In this document: positions 1 to 43,234 of the stretch, piece by piece
Layout of the letters: each line of letters starts with the position of its first letter
Position numbering within the stretch: position 1 is the stretch's first letter
From: Prevotella sp.
Lineage (GTDB): Bacteria > Bacteroidota > Bacteroidia > Bacteroidales > Bacteroidaceae
DNA: 64,000 nt
Reading direction: 5' to 3'
NCBI GenBank assembly: GCA_022773395.1
Contig: JALFBL010000073.1
Location: 1 to 64,000 of the forward strand
The notes under the pieces: model-generated
What the model saw: the letters and a program-made list of their open reading frames with translations, nothing else
What the model was told of the DNA's origin: nothing
Databases searched by the model: none
Program-made: the position numbers and the translations under genes

Positions 1-1150
1 AATCCTGCAGGTACTTACCTCCAAGTTCGTTGGCAGCCATTGTGAGGACTTGCATCTCTGCATGTGCTGTTACGTCGCAGAGTTTTTCCGTCAGATTGTG
101 GGCACGCGCAATGATTTTGTCGCGACAAACTACCACTGCTCCAACAGGAACTTCGCCTGCTTCGTAGGCTTTTTGGGCTTCTTCCATTGCTTTGTCAAGG
201 CTCCATTTGTCGTATGGAACCTGACTGCGACAAATTTCCTTGTCGTAAATCACTTTACTGTAATTATAATGTGCTTCATCTTTTTTTGCAACCTTCTTGA
301 TGCCTTCTTCCATGGTGTTGGCGGCTTGGTCGAACAAGTTACGGTTCAGTTCTTGTCTGGCTTTCGCATCATAGCCGTCAATGACCGTGGGGAACATTTT
401 CAGAAAGTCGTCAATGGCAGCCACATATTTCAACGAATCACCGCTTTGTCCTGCCATTACCAAGGCTAATTGTGCTTGTTCCTGGTTGGTTGGCATGCTC
501 ATGGGGATTCCAATTTGGCGGAGGTTTGCGTCCGAGTAGGACAATGCCGTGAGTTGGAGGCTGTTGATATACCTTGCGTCTGTGGCATGGGTATCGAAGG
601 TGGTCGTACTGATTTGCATTAGTCCCAGTATTTCTCCTGATGCATTGACAAATGGACATGAAATGGCATTGTCGGGAGCATTCATTCCAAAGATGTAGTA
701 AGCGTATTGGTTCATGAATGATTCCACTTTCTTGATGGAAGTCTCCTCTATGGCAGGATTTTTCAAGCCGTATCCCACAAGCCAGGACTTGTCGCCTCTT
801 GCTCCTGCTGCTGCGGCGATGGGAGCAGGCGTTGGCTTGCCATCAACACGGAATTTGGCCACATTGTAGATGTCGTTGATGCCCATCATGCGTGCCACGT
901 TCATTTTGTTGCCCTTATGGTCGATAACGACGGCTGATGCTGCACCGATAAATGATTTCAAGTCGCTGATGGCTTCACCGTCTTGTCCTACAAAAACTCC
1001 GTGCGACGAAGCCAGCAAGGAGCCGTCTGCTCTGAATGTGGTGAGGGTGAACACACTCTTTGCCACATTCTTTACGCTTGCAGGTTGTGCATTGGTCATT
1101 CCACATACCGCTATCAGTAGGGTTGCAAGTATCGTTCTTGTCTTTTTCAT
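1..1150 (-). CDS. Secreted trypsin-like protease/TPR-type protein (N-terminal ~315 aa) continuing in frame into a tRNA adenosine deaminase (TadA) N-terminus; 3' end outside window
   Basis: Manual translation from ATG at 1150: MKKTRTILATLLIAVCGMTNAQPASVKNVAKSVFTLTTFRADGSLLASSHGVFVG...; at ~1-190 reads AMEEAQKAYEAGEVPVGAVVVCRDKIIARAHNLTEKLCDVTAHAEMQVLTMAANELGGKYLQD (TadA with TAHAE zinc motif). Same frame, no stop seen. Confidence 0.75.
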   Translation of the reverse strand, partial: MKKTRTILATLLIAVCGMTNAQPASVKNVAKSVFTLTTFRADGSLLASSHGVFVGQDGEAISDLKSFIGAASAVVIDHKGNKMNVARMMGINDIYNVAKFRVDGKPTPAPIAAAAGARGDKSWLVGYGLKNPAIEETSIKKVESFMNQYAYYIFGMNAPDNAISCPFVNASGEILGLMQISTTTFDTHATDARYINSLQLTALSYSDANLRQIGIPMSMPTNQEQAQLALVMAGQSGDSLKYVAAIDDFLKMFPTVIDGYDAKARQELNRNLFDQAANTMEEGIKKVAKKDEAHYNYSKVIYDKEICRSQVPYDKWSLDKAMEEAQKAYEAGEVPVGAVVVCRDKIIARAHNLTEKLCDVTAHAEMQVLTMAANELGGKYLQD

Positions 1151-1154
1151 TTGC

Positions 1155-2816
1155 TTATTGTCTTTTCAAAAGTTCACGGGCATTGCTGACGGCTGCTGGA
1201 GTAATGTCACTTCCGCTCAGCATCTGTGCGATTTCCCGTACACGTTCCTCTCCGTCGAGTATCTGCATTCTGGATGTTGCACCTTGTGGTGTCTCCTCCT
1301 TGAATACCTTGTAGTGTCTTGCGCCTTTGGCGGCGATTTGCGGCAGGTGGGTAATGCTTATCACCTGCCGTTCGGCATTGCCCATTTCCTGCATGATCAT
1401 TGCCATGCACTCGGCAATCTTTCCACTCACTCCCGTATCAATCTCGTCAAAAATGATGGTAGGCAGTTTCACGGCTGTGCTGATCATCGCTTTGAGCGAC
1501 AGCATTACACGGGCTATTTCACCGCCCGAAGCCACTTCGCTTGCAGGTTGCATTGGGGTATTGGTATTGGCACTGAACAAAAAGCCTATCTTGTCGGTTC
1601 CGTTGATGGACAATGCTTTCTTTTCCATGGAAATTCCGAAACGCGCATGAGGAATGCCCAATTGTGCGAGCCTCTGCATCATTTCTTTTTCTATTATGGC
1701 TGCGGCTTTTTGACGTTGGACGGTGAGTTTCCGGGCGAGATTCTCACATACTTTCATTTGTTCATCTCGCTTTTCGTTCAATTCTTTCAGTTCTTCATCA
1801 CTGTTGTTGATGTGATCGAGTTGGCTGGCTATTTCTTCCCTGATTCTTATCAGTTCGTCCACGCTGTCTGCATGGTGCTTCTTTTCCAAAGCGTAGATGA
1901 GGTCGAGCGTATGGTTGATGTGCTCAAATCGTTGAGGATCGAAATCAATGTTTTCCACACTGCTGCCGATTTCTCGCGACAAGTCTTTCAATTCTATATA
2001 GCAGCTCTCTGTCCTTTCGGCCACCTCTTTTATTTCTGGATAAACGTCTGTAATGTTGTCCAGGGCACGCGATGCTTCTTTCAAACGTTCTATTACTCCG
2101 GCTTGCTCGCCGGTCAGAATGTTGTCGGCGATGAAAAGTCCGCTTTTGATGTCTTCCACATGGCTGAGTGTCTCACGTTCCTGTTCCAATGCTACATCCA
2201 TTTCCGGCTCAAGTGCAGCGTCTGTCAGTTCTTTCAGCTGGAAGCGTAGAAAATCCTCATTTTCTTTTGCCTTTTCAATGGCTTCCTGTAGTTGTGACAC
2301 AACTTTCTCTGCCTCTTTATACGCCTTGAAACCGTTGCGGTATTTTTCTAAAAGCTCATGGTTTTCTGCAATCGTATCTACCACGTTCAGTTGGAAATCC
2401 TCTTCTTGCAGCAGCAAATTCTTATGTTGGGAGTGGATGTCCACCAATTGCTGTCCCAATGATCGCATTTGTGCCAGCTGCACCGGTGTGTCATTGATGA
2501 ATGCCCTGCTTTTCCCGGCTGCTGTCAACTCCCTTCTTACAATGCAGTCGTTGGCATCATAGTCGACGCCGTTCTCTTGGAAAAAGTCCTGCATTTGGTA
2601 TTTGCTCAAGTCGAAATGCGCTTCGATTATGCATTTTTCCGCACCGCTTTTAATGCTTCTTGAATCGGCGCGTTGACCGGTCAGCAGGGCAATAGCTCCT
2701 AATATGATACTCTTTCCCGCGCCCGTTTCGCCTGTTATGACAGAGAAACCAGAGCCAAACTGTATGTTGAGCGCGTCGATCAGTGTGAAATTCTTGATGT
2801 ATAGTTGCTTTAGCAT
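1155..2816 (-). CDS. recN: DNA repair protein RecN
   Basis: MLKQLYIKNFTLIDALNIQFGSGFSVITGETGAGKSIILGAI (Walker A) and SGGEIARVMLSLKAM...TIIFDEIDTGVSG (signature/Walker B). Confidence 0.97.
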   Translation of the reverse strand: MLKQLYIKNFTLIDALNIQFGSGFSVITGETGAGKSIILGAIALLTGQRADSRSIKSGAEKCIIEAHFDLSKYQMQDFFQENGVDYDANDCIVRRELTAAGKSRAFINDTPVQLAQMRSLGQQLVDIHSQHKNLLLQEEDFQLNVVDTIAENHELLEKYRNGFKAYKEAEKVVSQLQEAIEKAKENEDFLRFQLKELTDAALEPEMDVALEQERETLSHVEDIKSGLFIADNILTGEQAGVIERLKEASRALDNITDVYPEIKEVAERTESCYIELKDLSREIGSSVENIDFDPQRFEHINHTLDLIYALEKKHHADSVDELIRIREEIASQLDHINNSDEELKELNEKRDEQMKVCENLARKLTVQRQKAAAIIEKEMMQRLAQLGIPHARFGISMEKKALSINGTDKIGFLFSANTNTPMQPASEVASGGEIARVMLSLKAMISTAVKLPTIIFDEIDTGVSGKIAECMAMIMQEMGNAERQVISITHLPQIAAKGARHYKVFKEETPQGATSRMQILDGEERVREIAQMLSGSDITPAAVSNARELLKRQ

Positions 2817-2852
2817 TTCATCGAGAGTGTTTGTATGCAATCGTTGCTGTTG

Positions 2853-3761
2853 TTATTCCTTTATGCTTTCCCAATAGTTGTTCTGCGATGCATTGATGGA
2901 AAACAAAATGTCATATACTTTTTCTTTTTCCTTTTGTGTACCTTTGCCTTTATATATATTGGCCAGTTCCTCTTTCTTGTAGTCAGTCCAAATCTGCGGC
3001 AGCAGGCTCAGTGGTCGGTCCTGGTGGCATTTTTGTAAATCGTTCTCAAGGGCGGTGGAGATATTTGTCCGTCCGCGCTCCGCATTGTTTGCCATTTCGT
3101 CGAATCCTGTACGGTAATAGTCATACTGTAGTTGTCGGAACGGTTTCATAGCTCCTTCCATATAGTCGTTGATGATGGCAAACCGGTTTCTGCTGTTGTC
3201 GAACGACTTCCATCCCGTAAAATTGAGATTCTGTGCATTGTTGGTCAGGCTCAGGCAGCGTTGCAAGACATCTTCTCCGCCCATGGGAGAAAAAGAATCG
3301 AGATTGATGCCAATCAGCAGGTAGGCATAGTAGGCTATCAAAGCCGTCAGCTGGTTGTCTATCTGTTCCTCATTGAAATTCAACTGTTCGAACTGCGAAA
3401 AGGTGAAATTGAAGTCAGCGTCCTTATTATTATATAAGGTGGTTGTGTAAGAGGAATTATATACAGGGCGGTTTGCCTGAATCAGTGCCGAGCAAGTGAA
3501 CATGTTCTCCCCCGGGTCGTATTTTGCCACCGTGATGTTGAAACTGCAAGGAATGCGCTCGTTTTTCTGAAATTGCAAACGAGTCCATTGCCTGTCATTG
3601 ATAAACTGCTCCAATGTCTTTTGCAGGTTCTCGAACACGCTTGCATCCGTACCTTGTATCTGGTTGTGGTTAATGTTCACTTTGGCCAGCAATTCCTGCG
3701 CCTTGGCCATTCCGCACAATGCACACGACAGAACAATCGTTGTCAAGACACGTTTCAGCAT
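2853..3761 (-). CDS. DUF4835 family protein (secreted, Bacteroidetes)
   Basis: Signal peptide then QELLAKVNINHNQIQGTDASVFENLQKTLEQFINDRQWT; sits between recN and dnaQ/dnaN. Confidence 0.85.
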   Translation of the reverse strand: MLKRVLTTIVLSCALCGMAKAQELLAKVNINHNQIQGTDASVFENLQKTLEQFINDRQWTRLQFQKNERIPCSFNITVAKYDPGENMFTCSALIQANRPVYNSSYTTTLYNNKDADFNFTFSQFEQLNFNEEQIDNQLTALIAYYAYLLIGINLDSFSPMGGEDVLQRCLSLTNNAQNLNFTGWKSFDNSRNRFAIINDYMEGAMKPFRQLQYDYYRTGFDEMANNAERGRTNISTALENDLQKCHQDRPLSLLPQIWTDYKKEELANIYKGKGTQKEKEKVYDILFSINASQNNYWESIKE

Positions 3762-8867: not shown

Positions 8868-8954
8868 GGAAGTTTGGGTGAGTGGCTGAAACCAGCAGTT
8901 TGCTAAACTGCCGTACGAGTTCTCGTACCGGGGGTTCGAATCCCCCAGCTTCCG
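8868..8954 (+). tRNA. tRNA-Ser(GCT)
   Basis: Acceptor GGAAGTT/AGCTTCC, anticodon loop TTTGCTAAA, long variable arm TACGAGTTCTCGTA, GGTTCGAATCC T-arm. Confidence 0.93.
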
Positions 8955-8982
8955 CTGAGGTGTAGAAAAAGAAAGTTCACAG

Positions 8983-9057
8983 GGTGGATTCATCTAACGG
9001 TTAGGATACAAGATTCTCAATCTTGGCATAGGGGTTCGATTCCCCTATCCACTACCA
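8983..9057 (+). tRNA. tRNA-Glu(CTC), CCA encoded
   Basis: Acceptor GGTGGAT/ATCCACT, anticodon arm CAAGA-TTCTCAA-TCTTG, GGTTCGATTCC T-arm, ACCA 3' end. Confidence 0.93.
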
Positions 9058-43158: not shown

Positions 43159-43234
43159 CGCGGAGTGGAGCAGTTGGTAGCTCGCCAGGCTCATAACCTG
43201 GAGGTCGCATGTTCGAGTCCTGCCTCCGCAACCA
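43159..43234 (+). tRNA. Initiator tRNA-fMet(CAT), CCA encoded
   Basis: C1/A72 acceptor mismatch, anticodon loop CTCATAA, promoter TTTG-N20-TACCTTTG upstream. Confidence 0.9.

Follow-up and report, generated by a model that had tools for sequence, protein, structure and literature searches.

Bacterial TadA is the tRNA adenosine-34 deaminase, canonically a stand-alone protein. In Prevotella, an exported protein with an HtrA-like N-terminal half (a weak profile match to HhoA/HtrA) and a C-terminal half of TPR repeats is encoded next to recN and is common throughout the genus; in the related genome G006 its gene lies between recN and hup. Metagenome assemblies, for their part, contain inter-genome chimeric contigs, the products of misassembly. 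The locus described here displays the first two proteins in a single open reading frame, and this apparent protease/TPR-TadA fusion is very probably (roughly 0.97) an artefact of metagenome assembly. The names recN, hup, and rng used below are assignments made from sequence.

The open frame at the contig end

The window, i.e., the whole stretch of 64,000 nucleotides that was analysed, begins with the first base of contig C15 (70,210 bases), one of the 122 contigs of a draft assembly that is 97.8% complete. Three tRNA genes are found in it by Rfam, at positions 8868-9054 and 43159-43231. On the minus strand, a frame begins with the ATG at 1150 and reaches the window edge (2-1150) as 383 residues with no stop, its 3' end remaining open. 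A sequence-only reading of this DNA had reported such a frame, running uninterrupted from a signal peptide and a trypsin-like/TPR-type protein into TadA, and this is indeed what the sequence contains. The features of the region are the following:

1-183, minus strand: foreign contig tail, an inside piece of a stand-alone tadA from another Prevotella species, with neither start codon nor PCxxC (183/183 identity to L052:3371-3553)
160-196, minus strand: junction zone, the A-x-EEAQKAY codons (identity to the donor stops at 183/184)
184-1150, minus strand: native gene for the exported protease-like/TPR protein, 5' part comprising about 322 of some 550 codons (orthologue matches; the rest is on C91:1-633)
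1155-2840, minus strand: recN, adjacent on the upstream side, an arrangement shared with G006 (open reading frame; same neighbour in L007)

The N-terminus of the 383-residue protein is hydrophobic and, judged by eye, signal-peptide-like, as had been claimed. The N-terminal half of the protease/TPR protein is covered by no Pfam model at E 0.001. Searched against the PDB, the family profile yields weak matches to HhoA/HtrA proteases (E 0.002-0.006) and to the TPR protein TOM70 (E 0.0005), and TPR repeats occur in the C-terminal half of complete relatives, making the "trypsin-like/TPR" label a fair one. At the other end, Pfam PF00383 matches residues 314-380 (E 2.4e-12), the last ~65 residues being deaminase-like. 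The NCBIfam TadA model matches residues 315-375 (E 3.4e-10) with a score under the model cut-off, since only part of TadA is present. This part breaks off at ...KYLQD, ahead of the zinc-binding PCxxC motif, which is lacking because contig C15 ends there. The frame possesses HAE and not PCxxC, and a full TadA zinc site was not found in this single protein.

Origin of the two sides of the junction

The sequences flanking the junction stem from two different genomes. A search with 26 exact bases of the tail against one genome per species (85,462 species) returns one record, JALFSW010000055.1, from the metagenome-assembled genome of Prevotella sp. isolate SUG981. Bases 1-183 of the window are identical to positions 3371-3553 of this locus (L052) at 183 of 183 bases, and beyond them identity collapses. 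The contig is named k141_54081, a prefix presumably pointing to MEGAHIT as the assembler of the donor genome. The SUG981 locus harbors an intact stand-alone tadA of 150 residues with its own start, flanked on both sides by ordinary cellular genes. The protease/TPR protein of SUG981 is an unfused frame of 564 residues, 34% identical to the copy described here, and when the SUG981 DNA is compared with the whole 1150-base region a good match is found in the tail alone. SUG981 is therefore a different species. A donor was also searched for among 399 congeners, none of which qualifies, the best DNA identity being 81%; it was the exact-base search alone that revealed SUG981.

The genome possesses its own intact tadA on another contig (C16), a frame of 178 residues with the full zinc site; a second intact tadA, which the sequence-only reading had proposed to look for, thus exists. 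It is the only stretch of the genome similar to the tail. Since its DNA is only 71% identical, it is not the tail donor, and an in-genome second copy was rejected as the source.

From position 184 onward, the frame is native, with both its orthologues and its synteny. It shares 63-64% identity with the orthologue of G006 and 35-51% with those of other congeners, in which the frames of this gene are mostly 550-600 codons long. The G006 orthologue is intact (557 residues) and continues as TPR repeats. Using its C-terminal part as a query against the same genome as the window reveals the true continuation of the gene at C91:1-633 (66% identity, the match covering bases 1-630). Contig C91 opens in frame with KGDYQQAYNDF..., ~18 codons past the point where the native residues of the window end, and after this 3' part it carries an HU-type gene (hup), then rng. 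The order recN - protease/TPR - hup - rng observed in G006 is restored here by joining C15 and C91. Owing to the 3' part on C91 and to the G006 order on both sides, the two contigs are neighbours split inside the protease/TPR gene. An intact copy of this gene had also been put forward as something to look for; its native 3' part was recovered, the gene itself being divided between C15 and C91. This adjacency orders two of the 122 draft contigs, which are separated by ~54 bases of the native gene that the assembly lacks.

The switch had been placed at about 145-195; it is found, from the tadA side, at 183/184, within the stretch coding for A-x-EEAQKAY. The chimera has this motif as A-M-EEAQKAY; the donor tadA encodes A-L-KEAQKAY, and the protease/TPR protein of G006 has A-M-EEANQAY. 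No second site for the 30 bases at 167-196 exists in the genome when as many as 3 mismatches are allowed. Examined for shared sequence, the junction has donor identity ending within the codons of the shared motif, and the native bases lying just beyond are those missing from the assembly. A join falling in similar codons would be in register, and an open frame running through it is then to be expected.

Among 60 related genomes, 59 match the frame at least once, and within the genus mostly by two separate matches. Matches to the protease/TPR part extend from query residues ~1-20 to 329-337. Matches to the TadA part cover query residues ~309-383 and belong to separate frames, mostly of 150-200 codons, at other loci. 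A single match joining both halves was found in none of the 60, and the protease/TPR-TadA architecture, for which homologues had been called for, is therefore not encountered in these independent genomes. Some TadA matches reach upstream of the junction (e.g., in G017 and G058); they were rejected, as they cross stops or add ~20 residues of low identity and stop short of the protease/TPR gene.

Assembly or recombination

The preference of the sequence-only reading for a chimera arising at microhomology is supported, the pieces being found apart: the native tadA on C16, the 3' part of the protease/TPR gene on C91, and the 100% identical donor in SUG981. Contig C15 leaves the native gene at the shared-motif codons, follows the tadA of the other species over at most 183 bases, and ends, the native gene resuming ~18 codons later at the first base of C91. 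As to how such a chimera might form, the assembly graph may have branched at a k-mer common to both genomes, and the wrong branch, about as long as a single read, may have been retained at the contig end. With a small k-mer, a graph assembler could switch genomes at such a stretch, and both the read-length tail and the break at C91:1 would fit with this. Judging from the sequences compared, assembly is most likely the source of the chimera, being much likelier than recombination.

Real recombination in the strain or in a sub-population might have placed a foreign piece of tadA into the protease/TPR gene, generating a fusion gene. The frame open across the junction and a tail differing from the genome's own tadA would both suit such an event, which we nonetheless regard as very unlikely: an open frame is expected anyway for a join made in register within similar codons, and the tail shows 100% identity to a gene of another species and terminates where the contig does. 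Furthermore, the start of the displaced 3' part coincides with the end of another contig, ~18 codons downstream, and the fusion is seen in no relative. Less probable still is a recent recombination in a sub-population by which an incoming tadA would have been fused to the protease/TPR gene, with both alleles caught by the assembly. A real and functionally important fusion with exported TadA, i.e., a secreted deaminase, would account for a signal-peptide-like N-terminus and a TadA-like part in one frame. It is, however, absent from 60/60 relatives searched, the part present lacks PCxxC and has its exact counterpart in an ordinary stand-alone tadA elsewhere, and the split halves are found apart. 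The fusion or exported deaminase, already the less favoured option of the sequence-only reading, thus loses its support, and its probability appears vanishingly small. With assembly as the preferred source, the organism would have a normal exported protease/TPR protein of ~550 residues and a separate, normal TadA, and no fused protein.

Comparison with known systems

The artefact leaves biology unchanged and neatly illustrates that a short foreign tail on a contig end of a metagenome-assembled genome can mimic an unprecedented fusion by joining two reading frames in register. Open frames touching a contig end should hence be compared with the other contig ends of the same bin.

With respect to bacterial TadA, the tail corresponds to a piece of the canonical stand-alone tadA; it differs in being devoid of both the start and PCxxC and in originating from another species. 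The native part resembles the exported HtrA-like and TPR protein of Prevotella, sharing 63-64% identity with the N-terminal part of the G006 protein and the same neighbours, whereas the copy here is cut by a contig break and has its remainder on C91. The closest likeness is with inter-genome chimeric contigs, as the junction probably lies in short similar sequence, the foreign tail of about one read length sits at the contig end, and the true continuation is found at a different contig end within the bin. The only difference from the usual cases is that the frames are here in register, thereby mimicking a gene fusion.
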